DNA from: a virus
IMG/VR virus record: IMGVR_UViG_3300021424_000117
Coordinates: 1-36,612 of that record
Length of the DNA stretch: 36,612 nt
Direction: 5' to 3' (one strand)
The position numbers and the translations under genes are program-made. Positions within the stretch are counted from its first letter, which is position 1. The number at the start of each line of letters is the position of its first letter. Positions 12,259 to 19,830 of this stretch are shown in pieces. The notes beneath the pieces are model-generated. The model was not told where the DNA came from and ran no database searches. It saw nothing but the letters and a program-made list of their open reading frames with translations.

Positions 12259-13967
12259 TTCTATTTAAGAAAGTACGTTGGAAGAACTTTCTATCTACAG
12301 GTAATAACTTTACAGAGATAGATCTTACCAAGCATAAGTCAACACTAATTGTGGGTACGAATGGTTCTGGTAAGTCAACCATTCTTGATGCTATTTCTTT
12401 TGCACTCTACAATAAGCCATTCAGAAAGATTAATAAGCCTCAACTTGTTAACTCTATCAACGGTAAAGATCTTTGCGTTGAGTTTGAATTTATTGTAGGT
12501 AATGCTACCTATAAGATTGTTAGAGGCATCAAACCAAACAAGTTTGAGATCTATAAGAATGACCAGCTACTAAACCAAGATGCTGATAGTAAAGATTATC
12601 AAGAGGTAATTGAAAAGCAGATCGTTAAGATGAACCATAGAACATTCTCCCAAGTAGTTGTTCTTGGTTCTTCTACCTATGTTCCTTTCATGCAACTCTC
12701 TGCTGCTGCCAGAAGAGAAGTTATTGAGGACTTGCTCGACATTCAAGTATTTACTACAATGAATACATTGTTGAAAGGTAAGGTAACATCTAACCAAGAT
12801 GACCTAAAGCAAGCAAAGTATGATAGTGATCTCATTGACGAGAAGATTAATATTCAAACTGCCTACATTAACTCTCTAAAGAAAGATGTTAGTGATAAGG
12901 TTGAAGTAAATAAACTCAAGATTCAAACAACAAATGTTGAGATTGAAGGTATCGAGTATACTATTGATACAAATAGTACATCTATTGATGAAAAGATGAA
13001 AGACACAGCTAACCTTGATAAGCTAACAAAGAGAATGGAGAAGTCTGTCATCCTAAAAGAAAAGACTATCGACAGACTCTCTAAGTTAGACAAAGAGATT
13101 AAGTTCTTCCATGACAATGATGATTGTCCAACTTGTAAGCAGGGCATTCCCCATGAGTTCAAGGCTGAATCTATTACAACCAAGGAAGGCCAGGTAACTG
13201 AGATAAAGAACAATCTTGTCCTCCTAGAAGAGGATTACAATAATACTGTAACAGAAGTAACAAGGATCAACAAGATTCAGAAAGAGATTCAGGCAATCCA
13301 ACTAGAGATCAATAAATTACAAACTGAGATAATCTCTAAGAAGAAGTTTATTGATTACTTGCAAGCTGAGATTGATGGATTAGAAACAAACACAGCCAAC
13401 GTTGATGCAGAAAAACTAAAACTAAAAGAACTACAAAAGCAAAAGGCAGAAGCTGAGGACAAGAAGCAGAAGCTGCTTGAGGACTATGAAATTCTACAGG
13501 CAGCTTCTGCTCTCTTAAAGGATGGTGGTATCAAGACTAGAATCCTTCGTCAGTATATGCCAATCATTAATAAGCTGATCAACAAGTACTTGGCTGCCAT
13601 GGACTTCTTTGTTCAGTTTGAAATTGACGAACAGTTTAATGAGACTATCAAGTCTAGATTCAGAGATGAGTTTAGTTACAATTCATTCTCGGAAGGTGAG
13701 AAGATGAGAATTAACTTAGCTGTTCTCTTCACATGGAGAGCAATTGCCAAGATGAGAAATAGCGCTGCAACCAATCTACTAATTATGGATGAGGTATTTG
13801 ATAGTTCTCTAGATAGTAATGGTACAGATGAGTTCTTAAAGATTATCCAGACACTTACTGCTGACACTAACACATTTATTATTAGCCATAAGACGGACCA
13901 GTTATTCGATAAGTTCCATAATGTTATTAAGTTTGAAAAGACTAAAAACTTTTCGAGGATTGTATAA
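12255..13967 (+). CDS. 46: Recombination endonuclease subunit gp46 (Rad50/SbcC-like)
   Basis: A 570-residue SMC-type ATPase: Walker A GTNGSGKST (34-42), long coiled coils with a zinc-hook C-P-T-C (C291, C294) in the middle, ABC signature SFSEGEKMR, and Walker B LLIMDEVFDSSLD (D512, E513) with a following ISHK. Partner of gp47 in end resection. Size matches T4 gp46 (560). It overlaps gp47 upstream by four bases and the 2OG oxygenase downstream by one base (TAATG). Confidence 0.96.
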   Translation: MILFKKVRWKNFLSTGNNFTEIDLTKHKSTLIVGTNGSGKSTILDAISFALYNKPFRKINKPQLVNSINGKDLCVEFEFIVGNATYKIVRGIKPNKFEIYKNDQLLNQDADSKDYQEVIEKQIVKMNHRTFSQVVVLGSSTYVPFMQLSAAARREVIEDLLDIQVFTTMNTLLKGKVTSNQDDLKQAKYDSDLIDEKINIQTAYINSLKKDVSDKVEVNKLKIQTTNVEIEGIEYTIDTNSTSIDEKMKDTANLDKLTKRMEKSVILKEKTIDRLSKLDKEIKFFHDNDDCPTCKQGIPHEFKAESITTKEGQVTEIKNNLVLLEEDYNNTVTEVTRINKIQKEIQAIQLEINKLQTEIISKKKFIDYLQAEIDGLETNTANVDAEKLKLKELQKQKAEAEDKKQKLLEDYEILQAASALLKDGGIKTRILRQYMPIINKLINKYLAAMDFFVQFEIDEQFNETIKSRFRDEFSYNSFSEGEKMRINLAVLFTWRAIAKMRNSAATNLLIMDEVFDSSLDSNGTDEFLKIIQTLTADTNTFIISHKTDQLFDKFHNVIKFEKTKNFSRIV

Positions 13968-14536
13968 TGTACCCAAAAATTATTATACAGCCTAATTATT
14001 TTCCAGCTCAGTGGTGTGATAATATTAATTACTGGATGATCAATAATGTGGATGTAGACCCAAGGTTTGGAACCAAAGGTGTCCGACGTTGCAAGGTAAG
14101 ACTGTTAACTAAACAAATGAAACCATATGATGGTGTGTTTAGATCAATGATGGAGTTTGTTAAGCCTAAGCTTGAAAAGCTTTGCGTTGATATTGATGGT
14201 GAAATAGATGGAGCCATACAACATATTACCTATACTGCTGGTGATAGTGTTGGTTGGCACAATGATCTAATGGACGTACGAGCCGCCACTCAAAATCCAA
14301 AGTATAAGGACCTAAAAACAAATAGAAAATTATCAATGACAGTTATGCTTTCCAATCCGTCTGAGTATACGGGCGGCGATTTTGTATTTGATAGTAGCGT
14401 TAAATTGTCTACCAAAGTGGAGGGTAAGGGAACGGTTGCTCTCTTTACATCACACTCACAACATAAAGTAGAAGATATAACTTCTGGTACTAGGAATATA
14501 TTGTTTGTCTTTATAACAGGACCAGAGTGGAGATAG
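13967..14536 (+). CDS. 2-oxoglutarate/Fe(II)-dependent oxygenase (prolyl-4-hydroxylase type)
   Basis: A 189-residue protein with a complete 2OG/Fe site: H98 and D100 in VGWHNDLMDV, distal H166 in SQHKVEDI, and R176 in GTRNILFVF, with the typical EYTGGDFVF strand between. This class hydroxylates proteins, or bases in other families; the substrate is not deducible. Its position between gp46 and the 7-deazaguanine genes, plus the sister oxygenase at 15511, makes a role in nucleic-acid modification possible. It starts in a one-base overlap with gp46 and is followed by a promoter for queE, so it is probably transcribed with the gp47/gp46 unit. Confidence 0.88.
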   Translation: MYPKIIIQPNYFPAQWCDNINYWMINNVDVDPRFGTKGVRRCKVRLLTKQMKPYDGVFRSMMEFVKPKLEKLCVDIDGEIDGAIQHITYTAGDSVGWHNDLMDVRAATQNPKYKDLKTNRKLSMTVMLSNPSEYTGGDFVFDSSVKLSTKVEGKGTVALFTSHSQHKVEDITSGTRNILFVFITGPEWR

Positions 14537-14600: not shown

Positions 14601-15521
14601 ATGCAAAAAGAATATCACTATTCTGAGATCTTCTATTCTGTTCAAGGTGAAGGTCGATACACTGGTATACCAACTGCTTGGTTAAGGTACTTTCTCTGTA
14701 ACCTTCAGTGTGATGGCTTTGGTCAGAAAGACCCAACCGACCCTAGGACATACAAGCTTCCTTATAAAGAAATGAATGTCGACTTCATTAAGCGAGTCGA
14801 GGATCTTCCTGTATGGAAGTATGGTTGTGACTCATCCTACTCTTGGGCAAAGAAGTTCAAGCATCTGATGCATAAAGGCACTCCTGAGTATATTGCTAAT
14901 CAGATTCTAGGTTCAATTAGAACTGAACATAATACAGAAGCAAGGTTTGATCATCCAGCAGGACAACCAATCCATATGTGTTTTACTGGTGGTGAGCCTC
15001 TAATGAAACATGCTCAGGATTGTACTGTTGGTATACTTGATTACTTTGATAAGATTAACAATAGTCCTAAGTTTGTTACATTTGAGACTAATGCCACTCA
15101 AGCATTGAAGCCAGAGTTTAGTAACTTCATGGCTAACTGGAGAGAGATGGGTAAAGAAATCTTTATTTCATCTTCTCCTAAGCTCTGGACAACATCAGGT
15201 GAAACCAACAAGGATGCAATTGTCCCAGAAGTGTTAGCCCAGTATCACTCTTTATCTAGAGGCAAAGGGCAGATTAAGTATGTCGTCAATGGTAAAAAAG
15301 AAACTTGGGAAGAGGTTGAGCACGTAACAAATGAATTTAGAAAAGTTGGTGTGACATTTCCTGTTTGGATTATGCCAGTTGGTGCTACAGAAGAGGGTCA
15401 AACTGGTGAGCTTGATGGGTATGTGAGTGCTGGTACAATTGCAGAAGAAGCCTTTAAGAGAGGCTATAATGTTTCAGCAAGAGTCCATGTATATTTGTGG
15501 GGTAATACAATTGGAGTCTAA
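14601..15521 (+). CDS. queE: 7-carboxy-7-deazaguanine synthase (QueE), with cluster-loop insertion
   Basis: A 306-residue radical-SAM enzyme. EIFYSVQGEGRYTGIPTAWLRYFLCNLQC is the QueE N-terminus, and FTGGEPLMKH is the GGE motif. QueE turns 6-carboxytetrahydropterin into 7-carboxy-7-deazaguanine (CDG), the first 7-deazapurine of the pathway. Unusually, the CxxxCxxC motif is split: C33-x3-C37, then about 38 extra residues, then C76 in YGCDSSYSW, which corresponds to the usual CDTxYAW. The protein is therefore longer than typical bacterial QueE. It heads an operon with QueD, FolE2 and a DpdA-like protein, so the product is probably destined for phage DNA. No queC is visible. Confidence 0.92.
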   Translation: MQKEYHYSEIFYSVQGEGRYTGIPTAWLRYFLCNLQCDGFGQKDPTDPRTYKLPYKEMNVDFIKRVEDLPVWKYGCDSSYSWAKKFKHLMHKGTPEYIANQILGSIRTEHNTEARFDHPAGQPIHMCFTGGEPLMKHAQDCTVGILDYFDKINNSPKFVTFETNATQALKPEFSNFMANWREMGKEIFISSSPKLWTTSGETNKDAIVPEVLAQYHSLSRGKGQIKYVVNGKKETWEEVEHVTNEFRKVGVTFPVWIMPVGATEEGQTGELDGYVSAGTIAEEAFKRGYNVSARVHVYLWGNTIGV

Positions 15522-16056
15522 CTTTAAACAAATTAACATATTAGATCTTGATGAGGTTGAATATCTTAAACAAATGTTTGATAAATATCCTAAAAACTTT
15601 TGGACAAGAGACTACAACTTGTTTAATCTTTATAAATGTAATATTCCTCGTCGTGTATATTCCAACGATGTTGATTCTATGAGAAGCATAACACAAAAAA
15701 TAAAATCCCATCTAGATTGCAAGGAAGATACAAATTATTATTTTTTAAAATACATCCCAAACTCCTTTACACAAATCCATGTCGATAACCCAAATAGGAT
15801 ACAAAAAACGGCTGTAACGCTAATTGATATATCTGAAGATTTAGTTGGAGGGGAGGTTGTATTAATTAGTGGCATATCTCAATCAGATTTGATGCCAGGA
15901 GAATTTCGTCCTAATAACAATTTTAAAGATATAAAAGTGCCAGTTGTTGTTCGACAAAAGGTTGGTTCAACACTGATTTATAACCATAATGTAAAACATG
16001 GTGTTACAAAAGTTGAGCAGGGTCATCGTTTAGTTTTTATTTCATGGTATAATTAA
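15511..16056 (+). CDS. 2-oxoglutarate/Fe(II)-dependent oxygenase-like protein in the 7-deazaguanine locus
   Basis: About 181 residues. H90 and D92 in FTQIHVDNPNR, GGEVVLISG, distal H163 in NHNVKHGVTKVEQ, and R173 in GHRLVFISWYN give the 2OG/Fe motif set. The start is uncertain: no ATG lies at a good site, and the TTG at 15511 with GTGGGG (15497-15502) upstream is chosen; in-frame GTG 15427 and ATGs 15469 and 15487 would deepen the overlap with queE. It looks more AT-rich than queE. Substrate unknown; acting on a modified base or on a protein are both possible. Confidence 0.75.
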   Translation: MESNFKQINILDLDEVEYLKQMFDKYPKNFWTRDYNLFNLYKCNIPRRVYSNDVDSMRSITQKIKSHLDCKEDTNYYFLKYIPNSFTQIHVDNPNRIQKTAVTLIDISEDLVGGEVVLISGISQSDLMPGEFRPNNNFKDIKVPVVVRQKVGSTLIYNHNVKHGVTKVEQGHRLVFISWYN

Positions 16057-16057
16057 T

Positions 16058-16528
16058 ATGAAAATAATTAAGTATAAAAAGAAACAGTTTAATCAGGACA
16101 TTGAAACACTAGTAGGAAAAATCAAGAAATCCAAAGTCGAGTTTAGTTATATTGTTGCTTTATCAAGAGGGGGTCTTATTCCTGGTGTTGTTCTCTCCCA
16201 TAAGCTAAAACTTAATCTTTGGCCAGTCTCTTGGTCTACAAGAGATAGTCAACAAAGAGAAACAAATACTTGGATTCCGGAAGATGTTAACGATGGTCAT
16301 AAGATTCTGGTTGTTGATGATATTGTTGATAGTGGTGCTTGTTTAACGTCGCTGTTTGAAGAATGGGATTCGTGTGTAGTAAATAAGATGAACCGCGAAA
16401 ATATTTACATTGCCACCTTGATTTATAACAAGGATCAGTGTATAGTGCCACAGTTTTATGCAAACAAGATTTCAAGAAAAAAAACTCCAGAATGGTTTGA
16501 GTTCTGGTGGGAGGATTCGAATGGCTAG
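16058..16528 (+). CDS. Phosphoribosyltransferase-like protein
   Basis: A 156-residue protein of type I phosphoribosyltransferase fold: VALSRGGLIPGVVLSHKL (residues 33-50) and the PRPP-binding loop ILVVDDIVDSGACL (about 83-96). Such enzymes join a base to PRPP or cleave nucleotides; XGPRT-like and ComF-like members have this look. The substrate base is unknown. Its placing between queE and queD suggests handling of a purine or deazapurine, but this is context only. It starts two bases after the oxygenase stop, and its end overlaps the queD start by eight bases. Confidence 0.83.
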   Translation: MKIIKYKKKQFNQDIETLVGKIKKSKVEFSYIVALSRGGLIPGVVLSHKLKLNLWPVSWSTRDSQQRETNTWIPEDVNDGHKILVVDDIVDSGACLTSLFEEWDSCVVNKMNRENIYIATLIYNKDQCIVPQFYANKISRKKTPEWFEFWWEDSNG

Positions 16529-16985
16529 TAATTTTTATTCTACAAAAAGGATTGGTCCCATATCTACTGGCCACCGTCAGTGGAGAGACAAAGGTCACTG
16601 TAGGTGGGCTCATGGGTATGGTCGCTATGTTAAGTTTACCTTTGCATGTACTACCCTAGATGATAAGATGTGGTGCATGGACTTTGGTGACCTGAAGTGG
16701 GTTAAGGGGTGGTTAGAGGAACAGTGGGACCATAGAATGCTCATCGCTTCTGATGACCCTTTGCTCCCTGAGTGGGAGAGACTCCACGCAATTGATGGTA
16801 TTAACCTTAATGTGATGGATGTATCAAAAGGACATGGTCCTGGTATTGAAGGGTCATGTAAATTTGTATTTGATAACATTAATCCAAAGATAAAAGAGTT
16901 GACTAACAACCGCGTTTGGATTGATACTATAGAGATCTACGAGCATGAGTTTAACTCTGCTCTTTATATTAACCCGGAGGTGTAA
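16521..16985 (+). CDS. queD: 6-carboxytetrahydropterin synthase (QueD)-like
   Basis: A 154-residue T-fold protein. STGHRQWRDKGHCRWAHGYGRYVKFTF holds H18, the catalytic-type C27 and H31; MDFGDLKWVKGWLEEQWDHRMLI matches the DFxxLK and LDHxxLN motifs; IEIYEHEFNSALY matches the C-terminal VxExxxxxAxY. QueD converts dihydroneopterin triphosphate to 6-carboxytetrahydropterin, substrate of QueE. Odd point: the standard zinc motif HGH reads H31-G-Y33 here, so one usual zinc ligand is replaced. Start at the ATG 16521 (GGGAGGA just upstream, 16509-16515). Confidence 0.88.
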   Translation: MASNFYSTKRIGPISTGHRQWRDKGHCRWAHGYGRYVKFTFACTTLDDKMWCMDFGDLKWVKGWLEEQWDHRMLIASDDPLLPEWERLHAIDGINLNVMDVSKGHGPGIEGSCKFVFDNINPKIKELTNNRVWIDTIEIYEHEFNSALYINPEV

Positions 16986-16987
16986 AG

Positions 16988-17935
16988 ATGGGTATTGATT
17001 ATTCCAGCAAGATGCCAGATCTTGTATTTAAATACGATGATAAATTTTATTGTGATGAATTGCCTGACCCTCAGGTAAATCCTGTTCTACCTGGTGCTAG
17101 AGTACCTCTTCGTAAGGTTGGTATTGCTCCAGTGGATCTTCCTATTATGGTCAAGCGTCGAGATGGCCATACTCAGCAGTTGCAGGCAGAAGCCAGTCTT
17201 TATTGCTCTTTAGATGACCCTAATTCTAAGGGACTGAATCTTTCAAGACTCTATCTCCTTATGCATAATAAAATCAAAGACCATCTTTCGATTGATGGTA
17301 TCCAAGGAGCACTGAAGGAGCTTGCGGAGCAGCAGAATAGTAAGAATGCTTACTGTAAGCTTCGCTTTAAGTATCCTTGGACCCAGGATGCTCTTCGCTC
17401 TCGTAGAGATGATAATCCTGAAGAGAAGCTCAGAGGCCATATTGCCTATAAGATCGAATTAGAAGGTCAATATAGAAGTGGTCAGTGTAAGTTCTTCTTG
17501 ACTGTTGATTATGTCTATAGCTCAACCTGCCCCTGTTCGTTTGAGCTAGCGTATGATGCTCGCACTCATAGACAAGCTGCTGCTAATGCTCATAGTCAGA
17601 GATCTATTCTAAAAGTTAAGGTTGAGTTTGATCCCGAGAGGATTATTTGGTTTGAAGATGTTATTGAACTTTGTAGAAAGCATATTCCAACTGAAGTTCA
17701 GATTGTTGTTAAAAGACGAGATGAACAAGCATTTGCTGAATTGAATGGTGCCAACCTGTTGTTCTCTGAAGACGTTTGCCGTATTATGTACGCTGCGTTA
17801 GACGAATGGTATAACAAGGGTCGTATTAAAGACTTCTCTCTAGCCGTATCGCACGAAGAGAGTCTACATCCTTGGAATGCTATTGCCGTTACTTCTAAGT
17901 TCAATCCTAGTGAGGTTCCTGGGTGTCTGGTTTAA
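16988..17935 (+). CDS. folE2: GTP cyclohydrolase I type 2 (FolE2)
   Basis: A 315-residue protein of the FolE2 (GTP cyclohydrolase IB) family. DPQVNPVLPGARVPLRKVGI and LPIMVKRRDGHTQQLQAEASLYCSL are N-terminal hallmarks, GLNLSRLYLLM fits the GxxMSR segment, and YSSTCPCSFELAYDARTHRQAAANAHSQRS (read C181-P-C183 through AHSQRS) is the metal-site region. It makes dihydroneopterin triphosphate from GTP, feeding QueD then QueE. It follows queD by two bases and its end overlaps a GIY-YIG gene. Carriage by the phage means flux into the pathway need not depend on host FolE. Confidence 0.9.
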   Translation: MGIDYSSKMPDLVFKYDDKFYCDELPDPQVNPVLPGARVPLRKVGIAPVDLPIMVKRRDGHTQQLQAEASLYCSLDDPNSKGLNLSRLYLLMHNKIKDHLSIDGIQGALKELAEQQNSKNAYCKLRFKYPWTQDALRSRRDDNPEEKLRGHIAYKIELEGQYRSGQCKFFLTVDYVYSSTCPCSFELAYDARTHRQAAANAHSQRSILKVKVEFDPERIIWFEDVIELCRKHIPTEVQIVVKRRDEQAFAELNGANLLFSEDVCRIMYAALDEWYNKGRIKDFSLAVSHEESLHPWNAIAVTSKFNPSEVPGCLV

Positions 17936-18309
17936 AAGATGCATATAGTTATCGGTATAGAGGCGTTTATGGTGTCTATAACGATGCGTGTGAATTGATG
18001 TATGTTGGTTCCACTTCTTTAGGTCTAAAGAACCTTGAAGAGAACCATAGAAAGGCAAGAGAGAAAGGTTACGACATGACTAACTTTAGGACATTGCTTG
18101 AAGAGCATCAGTCTTGGAAGTTTGTATGGCTAATCAAGCCACGAAACTGCCAGCAGCCTCACATTGAGTTTGCTGAACAGACTCTCATCCAAGCGATGAA
18201 ACCTAAGCATAATATTGACAAGACTCCATATAAGTCGTCAATTTATTATGACCGATATGCTGATGTCCTGCAGCTATATGGTGAAGAGTTGGAGTATTTG
18301 AATGATTAA
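17923..18309 (+). CDS. GIY-YIG domain protein
   Basis: A 128-residue protein with the GIY-YIG nuclease signature YRGVYGVYNDACELMYVGST (GVY near 17-19, YVG 27-29), followed by a basic stretch ENHRKAREKG with the expected arginine and a later glutamate in HIEFAEQTLIQAMKPKHNI. It has no separate DNA-recognition domain, so it could be a small stand-alone nuclease, a degenerate homing enzyme, or have another role. GTG start at 17923 overlaps the end of folE2 by 13 bases and its stop overlaps the next ATG, so it is embedded in the operon rather than inserted as a free-standing intron enzyme. Confidence 0.78.
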   Translation: MSGLKDAYSYRYRGVYGVYNDACELMYVGSTSLGLKNLEENHRKAREKGYDMTNFRTLLEEHQSWKFVWLIKPRNCQQPHIEFAEQTLIQAMKPKHNIDKTPYKSSIYYDRYADVLQLYGEELEYLND

Positions 18310-18691
18310 GAAAAAGATTTGGGTGACGTTCCAAAAGGAAGGCATCCATTGCTATCCAGCTGCAGCAACAGACGAAAAGCTAAAAGATGTTGCATTCCTA
18401 GCTAACCCACATAGACATATGTTCCACTTTAAGGTTTACCTTGAAGTGTTTCACGATGATAGAGATGTGGAGTTCATTCTCTTGAAGAGAGAACTTGAGG
18501 CCCTATATGGTAATGGAACATTAAAGCTTGACTTCATGTCTTGTGAAATGATTGCAGAAGAACTTCTTACATACCTGAAAAATCAGTATCCAGGAAGAGA
18601 TGTTACAATTATTGTTAGCGAAGATAATGAGAATGGGTGTGAGCTTGTATATGAGCGATACATTCCTGTTCAATCTATGAAGGATGAATAA
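18302..18691 (+). CDS. Divergent PTPS/T-fold-like protein next to the DpdA-like gene
   Basis: A 129-residue protein. Its motif order resembles 6-pyruvoyltetrahydropterin synthase/QueD: IHCYPAA (H15), HRHMFHFKV (H37, H39, H42) in place of the HGH strand, RDVEFILLKRELE in place of DFxxLK, SCEMIAEELLTYL in place of PTxExxA, and VTIIVSEDNENGCELVYE in place of VxExxxxxAxY. This is a reading of spacing, not a database result. A second T-fold protein beside a transglycosylase could be a late-step enzyme or a partner subunit. It overlaps the GIY-YIG stop by eight bases. Confidence 0.55.
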   Translation: MIKKKIWVTFQKEGIHCYPAAATDEKLKDVAFLANPHRHMFHFKVYLEVFHDDRDVEFILLKRELEALYGNGTLKLDFMSCEMIAEELLTYLKNQYPGRDVTIIVSEDNENGCELVYERYIPVQSMKDE

Positions 18692-18692
18692 T

Positions 18693-19544
18693 ATGACAGA
18701 GTTTTGCCACATTGCTCCTATTGACTTTCTTGACCTTGTTAAGGGTAGAAGTCATCACTTAACCCTAGCGCATCTTGTTGACACGAGCAATGAGTATACT
18801 GAGTTCTATAGGAACCAGACTTGCGTTAACATCATGGACAATAGTGCCTTTGAGATGTATAAGCAAAGCAAGCCAATGCTAACACCTGCCAAAGTTTTAG
18901 AGATGGCAAGTATTATTAGAGCCAATTATGTTGTCATGTCAGACTATCCAGGTGAGCATTCATCAAAGACTATCCAGGCAGCAATTGACCTAGCACCTCT
19001 CTTTAGAGCGCAAGGGTTTGGTACATTCTTTGTACCTCAGTCGAAGGTTGGAGATAAGGAAGATTTAATTAGTGCTTTTGATTGGGCTTCAACATCCAAG
19101 CATGTAGACTATATTGGTGTGTCTATCCTTGGTGTTCCTAATGCATATGGTGTAGAGAAAGGTAACAAACTTCAACGATTTGTTGCTCGTTTCATGTTCA
19201 TGCAAGAGTTATATGACCGTGGCATCCTTCAACGTATCCGAAACAACAAAAAGAAGATCCACTTCTTAGGTATGGTCGATGGTCCAAATGAAATTAAGTT
19301 GATGGAGCCATATAGAGATTATATTGACACTTGGGATAGTAGTGCTGCTATTTGGTTAGGGTTGAATGGTGGAACATTTGATGGAAGTCCAACTGGTATC
19401 TTTGATGGTAAGTTTGAGAAGGAAGTGGACTTTGATCTCAAGCAAGCTGATACACCAATTGACTTTTACCGTATGGCAAAGTATAATATGGATTACATTG
19501 ATACAATTGTAACCAAATATTTAAATGATGATCCGGGGTATTGA
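18693..19544 (+). CDS. dpdA: DpdA/TGT-like transglycosylase, putative 7-deazaguanine DNA insertase
   Basis: About 283 residues with tRNA-guanine-transglycosylase barrel motifs: IMDNSAFE (D49), VVMSDYPG (D84), TFFVPQ, DYIGVSILGVP, IHFLGMVDGPNEI (190-201) and DTWDSSAAIWLGL (D212, D215). It is shorter than tRNA TGTs and lacks an obvious C-terminal zinc C-x-C site, as in the phage/bacterial DpdA branch that swaps guanine for a deazaguanine in DNA. With FolE2, QueD and QueE just upstream it would complete a DNA-modification pathway. The ATG at 18693 is chosen over 18684 because AAGGA (18680-18684) is better spaced. Substrate (CDG or a later derivative) is unknown. Confidence 0.8.
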   Translation: MTEFCHIAPIDFLDLVKGRSHHLTLAHLVDTSNEYTEFYRNQTCVNIMDNSAFEMYKQSKPMLTPAKVLEMASIIRANYVVMSDYPGEHSSKTIQAAIDLAPLFRAQGFGTFFVPQSKVGDKEDLISAFDWASTSKHVDYIGVSILGVPNAYGVEKGNKLQRFVARFMFMQELYDRGILQRIRNNKKKIHFLGMVDGPNEIKLMEPYRDYIDTWDSSAAIWLGLNGGTFDGSPTGIFDGKFEKEVDFDLKQADTPIDFYRMAKYNMDYIDTIVTKYLNDDPGY

Positions 19545-19545
19545 T

Positions 19546-19830
19546 ATGGCAGAAGTGAAATATAGATTTAGAGAAGATAAGGTCTTGATTGAGGCCTTAA
19601 AGTATGTTAATGGAACTTATCAACAGCATTATGTTGGTAAGGAAGAAGTCCAGACAATTGATGTTTGGAATTCATTAGGTAGTGTTGATACTACAGCAAG
19701 GGATACTGCTATTAAGTATCTAATGAGATATGGTAAGAAGGATGGATACAATAAAAAGGATTTGCTCAAGGCAATTCACTATATTGTTCTACTCTATCAC
19801 TTCACACAACCTCAGGAAGACAAGGTATGA
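19546..19830 (+). CDS. DUF3310-family protein (predicted nucleotide-related)
   Basis: A 94-residue protein with the DUF3310 pattern: VQTIDVWNSLGSV, then DTAIKYLMRYGKKDGYNKKDLLKAIHYIVLL. This small helical domain is common in phages and sometimes annotated as a nucleotide kinase without firm proof. It starts at the ATG 19546, with GGGG just upstream, immediately after the DpdA-like stop; its stop overlaps the next start. It may be co-transcribed with the modification locus. Confidence 0.8.
   Translation: MAEVKYRFREDKVLIEALKYVNGTYQQHYVGKEEVQTIDVWNSLGSVDTTARDTAIKYLMRYGKKDGYNKKDLLKAIHYIVLLYHFTQPQEDKV

Follow-up and report, generated by a model that had tools for sequence, protein, structure and literature searches.

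We hold with modest confidence that TF2, our working name for the family of the 18302-18691 product, is a QueD-derived, zinc-dependent decarboxylase that takes the place of QueC and converts 7-carboxy-7-deazaguanine (CDG) into 7-deazaguanine (DG) for the transglycosylase DpdA. The gene lies in the window, the whole 36,612-nucleotide stretch of viral DNA analysed here, and the argument draws on results computed in this work: the fold predicted for the protein, its pattern of kept and lost residues, the surrounding operon, the company of DpdA and the near mutual exclusion of TF2 and QueC.

TF2 belongs to a same-strand gene run that extends from QueE through a dCTP deaminase/dUTPase-like gene (Table 1). 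It overlaps the preceding and the following gene by 8 nt each, and the preceding one, encoding a weakly GIY-YIG-like protein, also overlaps FolE2. An earlier note on this DNA had described TF2 as the third T-fold protein of the operon; FolE2 and QueD, which carry out the first two pathway steps, are indeed both identified upstream by their Pfam models. The QueD ORF opens at 16458 and probably starts at the ATG at 16521 (MASNFYSTK). Its zinc motif is an HGY variant. Phage QueDs of this clade have HGY in place of HGH, and some have AAY/AAF-like motifs in place of AAH; they miss one or two zinc histidines but keep the Cys and the Asp-His, and they occur both with TF2 and with QueC. A promoter scan returned sites no more numerous than in shuffles.

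Table 1. Features of the window, followed by features of related loci (L numbers denote loci of the survey).
Feature	Position	Strand	Remarks
2OG-Fe(II) oxygenase-like genes	13967-14536; 15427-16056		both sides of QueE
QueE-like radical SAM protein	14601-15521	+	makes CDG; phrog_2076, E 2.1e-49
Purine phosphoribosyltransferase, XGPRT-like	16058-16528	+	PF00156, E 2.2e-9
QueD	16521-16985	+	second pathway step; PF01242, E 5.2e-18; phrog_2389
FolE2 GTP cyclohydrolase	16988-17935	+	first pathway step; PF02649, E 2.5e-59; NF010200 above cut-off
Weak GIY-YIG-like protein	17923-18309	+	phrog_16880, E 0.0015; PF01541, E 0.0044, below cut-off
TF2	18302-18691	+	129 aa; predicted QueD-like T-fold protein of PHROG_17812
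Small DpdA, predicted TGT fold	18684-19544	+	286 aa; alternative start 18693
DUF3310 protein	19525-19830	+	after DpdA; PF11753
dCTP deaminase/dUTPase-like	19827	+	end of the listed gene run
GT4-like glycosyltransferase	L086 5849-6910; L002 6969-7997; L085 7363-8454; L114 6856-7998		near TF2
Small DpdA-DUF3310 fusion, Rhizobium phage RHph_I1_18	L001 10077-11345
Longer ORFs ending in TF2, Vibrio phage Bakedbeans and Chryseobacterium phage MA9V-3	L088 6221-7372; L093 6431-7312
Gene 4, Mycobacterium phage Bipper	L103 2047-2472		between DpdA and QueD
Magnetospirillum region	L114 1105-14346

A PHROG search matched TF2 to PHROG_17812 ("unknown function") at 5.8e-37. Searches of Pfam (up to E = 10) and NCBIfam gave no match, PF01242 included, in line with the remark in the earlier note that the overall sequence is unlike QueD. 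The four QueD-like motifs that it listed were all found at the positions claimed, as HRHMFH (residues 37-42), EFILLKRELE (57-66), SCEMIAEEL (80-88) and VSEDNENGCELVY (105-117). A chance ORF was ruled out by the existence of 91 homologues and by a dN/dS of 0.02-0.06 against close relatives, which indicates strong purifying selection.

AlphaFold2, run with an alignment of 24 family members, gave a TF2 model (pLDDT 89.9, pTM 0.79) with the element order beta-beta-alpha-alpha-beta-beta shared by QueD, DHNA, QueF and GTP cyclohydrolase. A Foldseek search of the PDB with this model revealed that all 19 matches below E 1e-3 were QueD/PTPS chains, headed by Escherichia coli QueD (4ntk; TM 0.70/0.75). 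Alignment with VIA-align also placed QueD/PTPS first (Z 12.4), followed by dihydroneopterin aldolase, QueF-like proteins and GTP cyclohydrolase, all of them T-folds. The model thus predicts that TF2 is a member of the T-fold (tunnelling-fold) superfamily with QueD as its closest relative, as had been proposed for the 129-residue product. Profile-profile comparison by hhalign of 91 TF2 sequences with a broad QueD alignment gave a probability of 92% (P 5.7e-7), whereas ten unrelated cassette families used as controls reached 0.5% or less. The link with QueD rests on the fold and on this comparison, because a PDB sequence search with the TF2 profile returned chance matches only (a hypothetical protein and bacterioferritin, E 0.2-0.9).

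In QueD, Cys27, Asp70 and His71 form the catalytic triad, a set of histidines binds zinc and a glutamate anchors the base. In the hhalign alignment, H37 and H39 of TF2 coincide with H31 and H33, which bind zinc in QueD, and E107 coincides with E110, which anchors the base. E57-F58 corresponds to D54-F55 and S80-C81-E82 to T84-S85-E86. The match for H16 comes from the fold, where it closes the first strand as QueD H16 does. Nine residues are identical in all 91 homologues: H16, H37, H39, R54, E57, S80, C81, E82 and E107. TF2 therefore resembles QueD (6-carboxytetrahydropterin synthase, PF01242; PDB 4ntk, 2dj6) in fold, in length, in three predicted zinc histidines and the Glu anchor, and in an EF and an SCE motif where QueD has DF and TSE. 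However, the catalytic Cys27 is replaced by Leu33 (Leu in 91/91 homologues) and Asp70-His71 by Tyr-Gly, and 10 of 12 complete TF2 genomes also encode a true QueD; TF2 is found with DpdA and without QueC. We rejected a true QueD and a split QueD enzyme on the basis of these residues and of the QueD motifs across phages considered below. TF2 is a paralogue of QueD rather than QueD itself, and the alignment suggests that it retains residues predicted to bind the metal and a 2-amino-4-oxo bicycle, without those for QueD chemistry.

We considered whether TF2 acts as a second QueD, or as a complementary subunit restoring the zinc ligands absent from the phage QueD. The loss of one or two zinc histidines by QueDs of the clade (HGH to HGY), with three kept in TF2, would fit such a role, but HGY QueDs also occur in phages without TF2 (phi38:2, pf16 and immuto), a canonical HGH QueD stands alongside TF2 in PA5oct and Bakedbeans, and PF01242 detects no QueD in Vibrio phage D479, although TF2, FolE and QueE are present there. 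We regard this role as highly improbable.

The protein encoded directly downstream had been called DpdA-like, and its AlphaFold2 model (pLDDT 89.9) agrees with that assignment. No Pfam model matched its sequence; the best PDB matches of the model were TGTs, with a VIA Z of 19.5 to archaeosine TGT, and the model also matched the DNA preQ0 insertase DpdA (7ui4, E 7.8e-6). We propose that the regions around D52 and D218, within the invariant D52-N-S-A-F and D218-S-S, provide the catalytic Asp pair of TGT. As modelled, the product is a small, divergent type of DpdA. Homologues are present in D479, RHph_I1_18, Bakedbeans and Ahp1, all of which have TF2. In RHph_I1_18, small DpdA and the DUF3310 protein form a single polypeptide, which suggests that DUF3310 helps DpdA.

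The TF2 family is widespread. Searches by tblastn recovered it from 27 phage records whose hosts differ widely, from 258 viral-contig stretches and from 15 bacterial or archaeal assembly contigs. Many of these 15 resemble phage-type cassettes that were binned into MAGs; a search of the viral contigs with the phiST homologue gave no match. An unannotated family thus occurs in hundreds of phage contigs, those of the Pseudomonas aeruginosa jumbo phages PA5oct and Paride included. When all ORFs from 93 TF2 loci were clustered, two cassettes recurred: cassette A, the window type (QueE-oxygenase-phosphoribosyltransferase-QueD-FolE2-GIY-TF2-small DpdA), and cassette B (DNA polymerase-clamp-large DpdA-TF2-glycosyltransferase-epimerase-phosphoribosyltransferase-FolE-QueE). 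Dereplication at 90% identity left 54 lineages, 38 of them flanked by 5 kb or more on each side, neighbour counts being bounded by contig ends. Co-occurrence with DpdA and 7-deazaguanine genes had been suggested as a check on the role of TF2, and a 7-deazaguanine gene was found near TF2 in 53/54 lineages and in 38/38 with full flanks. DpdA itself lay in the fetched flank in 51/54, on the same strand as TF2 in all 51 and separated from it by a median of 790 bp; the sole full-flank locus without a nearby DpdA, that of Phosso, has DpdA elsewhere in its genome. TF2 partners at least four dissimilar DpdA types, among them window-like, phiST-like (phrog_20335), DpdA2-like (phrog_10773), large DpdA and phrog_887 (Roos).

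We then compared TF2 with QueC. QueC was not found in the window record, which may be a fragment; absence from fragments is weak evidence, and complete genomes bear the argument. Among 12 complete TF2 phages, DpdA was present in 12, QueE and FolE in 11 each and QueD in 10, while full-length QueC was present in none, so that the window and most of these phages possess the CDG genes (FolE, QueD and QueE) and DpdA without QueC; of these genes, Faecalibacterium phage Roos carries just DpdA and TF2. The sole QueC match above cut-off in the 12, at 33 bits, was a partial, 69-position one in D479, to a singleton adjoining a nicotinamide phosphoribosyltransferase. We rejected it as a counter-example, since it also scores 25.9 bits where the QueC cut-off is 150 bits, and it is probably another ATP-pyrophosphatase. 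By contrast, full QueC was found in 9 of 10 DpdA phages without TF2 (phi38:2, immuto, BSP7, 9g, CAjan, Dp-1, nt-1, pf16 and Vibrio 2.275.O), the tenth, Mycobacterium phage Bipper, having neither. With D479 counted against the association, Fisher's test gave p of about 3e-4, a value obtained from related phages and from a chosen rather than random sample of QueC-positive ones. Better evidence comes from repeated swaps within three DpdA lineages: between phiST (TF2) and immuto (QueC and QueF), whose QueEs are 76% identical; within DpdA2, between ACP17, X1 and BUCT-ZZ01 (TF2) and nt-1 and pf16 (QueC); and within large DpdA, between PA5oct (TF2) and Vibrio 2.275.O (QueC and QueF). This recurrence makes CDG, which QueE produces, the most likely substrate of TF2. 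As QueC acts on CDG, a protein that replaces it should do so too, unless CDG is inserted directly and TF2 helps in some other way. QueC (PF06508) acts at the step after CDG, as TF2 would, and is almost mutually exclusive with TF2 in the phages tested, but its Rossmann/ATP-pyrophosphatase fold is unrelated to that of TF2 and it makes ADG/preQ0 with ATP and ammonia.

The same comparison bears on a non-catalytic role, in which TF2 would bind CDG or another deazaguanine and deliver it to DpdA or form a heteromer with it. TF2 is small and single-domain, adjoins DpdA with a stop/start overlap in the window and shares its strand in 51/51 lineages, all as expected of such a partner. Nevertheless, we consider this role quite unlikely, as TF2 pairs with DpdAs of four or more dissimilar types, related DpdAs lack it where QueC is present, its nine invariant polar residues, with the three-His set and a Cys, look catalytic, and no TF2-DpdA fusion was found, the TF2 fusions seen involving other proteins. 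The earlier note had left open a late-step enzyme or an accessory subunit of base insertion; the variety of DpdA partners and the QueC swap within lineages fit an enzyme acting on the free base, so the first option is favoured over the second, which keeps a low probability.

We infer that TF2 binds zinc, takes CDG as its substrate and decarboxylates it, with dDG as the product in DNA. FolE2, QueD and QueE would make CDG, whose 2-amino/N1 edge would be held by E107 of TF2, and a zinc ion on H16, H37 and H39 would sit near the CDG carboxylate. Removal of the carboxyl group, probably through protonation of C7 by a nearby conserved acid (candidates are C81, H51, R54 and E57), would yield DG, which the adjoining DpdA would exchange for guanine in phage DNA to give dDG. 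Such a protonation with loss of CO2 is chemically plausible because the ring is an electron-rich pyrrole, and decarboxylation to DG is the simplest reaction for a cofactor-free zinc T-fold enzyme. Against it stands Bipper, which has neither QueC nor TF2 and thus hints that CDG itself may be insertable even when TF2 is missing. In 2023, Cui et al. reportedly described phages with dDG and dCDG and put forward DpdL, on prediction, as a decarboxylase of CDG. Its predicted step, from CDG to DG before DpdA in QueC-less phages, fits TF2, which is probably that DpdL. If TF2 does decarboxylate CDG, the missing step to unsubstituted 7-deazaguanine DNA would be supplied, the QueD fold would have gained a new reaction through loss of its catalytic triad, and the gene would serve as a marker of the phage base, with TF2 denoting the QueC-less branch and QueC the preQ0 branch. 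Isolated phages and their hosts exist, so a direct test is possible.

The main surprise was a tie to a GT4-like glycosyltransferase, encoded near TF2 in 28 of the 38 full-flank lineages, including all those with large DpdA (and DpdA2-like), and absent from small-DpdA phages and from 10/10 DpdA phages without TF2. Plain decarboxylation leaves it unexplained, because C7 of DG carries neither a hydroxyl nor an amino group as a handle. Unless the glycosyltransferase modifies a different base, those phages would have a new final base. TF2 might instead carry out some other chemistry on CDG, such as activation or replacement of its carboxylate, to prepare it for a later enzyme like this glycosyltransferase. 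The restriction of the glycosyltransferase to phages with TF2 and large DpdA (5/5 complete phages, against 0/10 DpdA phages without TF2) and its position within 1.9 kb of TF2 in every lineage having it would agree with such chemistry, whereas TF2 has neither a ligase nucleotide-binding motif nor the QueD catalytic Cys, small-DpdA phages, the window among them, lack the glycosyltransferase, and that enzyme may act on another base. We rate a different reaction on CDG as unlikely. That TF2 prepares a base which is later glycosylated, so that large-DpdA phages and the Magnetospirillum island described below may carry glycosylated 7-deazaguanine, is similarly a tentative idea of low probability; we know of no glycosylated 7-deazaguanine among DNA hypermodifications.

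For the preferred decarboxylation there is a chemical parallel in tubercidin biosynthesis, where decarboxylation of a CDG-derived intermediate by an unrelated UbiD enzyme has been proposed (PMC6112128). That enzyme, TubF, would likewise remove the 7-carboxyl group from a CDG-derived 7-deazapurine but differs from TF2 in its 422-aa length, its unrelated UbiD family, its likely dependence on prenyl-FMN and its proposed action after phosphoribosyl transfer (PMC6112128).

Several further features of the cassettes were observed. The phosphoribosyltransferase is present in 51/93 TF2 loci before dereplication, and an XGPRT-like one also occurs in the QueC phage immuto; it could salvage the guanine released by DpdA or, by analogy with TubE, convert a deazaguanine base to a nucleotide. 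The iron-sulphur cysteines of the window QueE are split by an insert (Cys33, Cys37 and Cys76, the last in CDSSYSW) rather than arranged as CX3CX2C, and the arrangement is similar in several relatives. The 2OG-Fe(II) oxygenase-like genes, of which relatives have up to four per cassette, could encode enzymes that oxidise a base or could be unrelated phage genes. Gene 4 of Bipper has HFH, TNEDVAWRL and C-terminal motifs that are faintly T-fold-like. TF2 forms the C-terminal part of longer ORFs in Bakedbeans and MA9V-3, where the N-terminal partners had no Pfam match and gave no functional clue. In Magnetospirillum aberrantis SpK, TF2 lies on a 424-kb contig, in a region encoding a HEPN_LA2681 protein, a CoiA-type nuclease, the glycosyltransferase, TF2, a large DpdA and QueD, followed by a phage-type integrase, and this region may be a bacterial genomic island for DNA modification and restriction.
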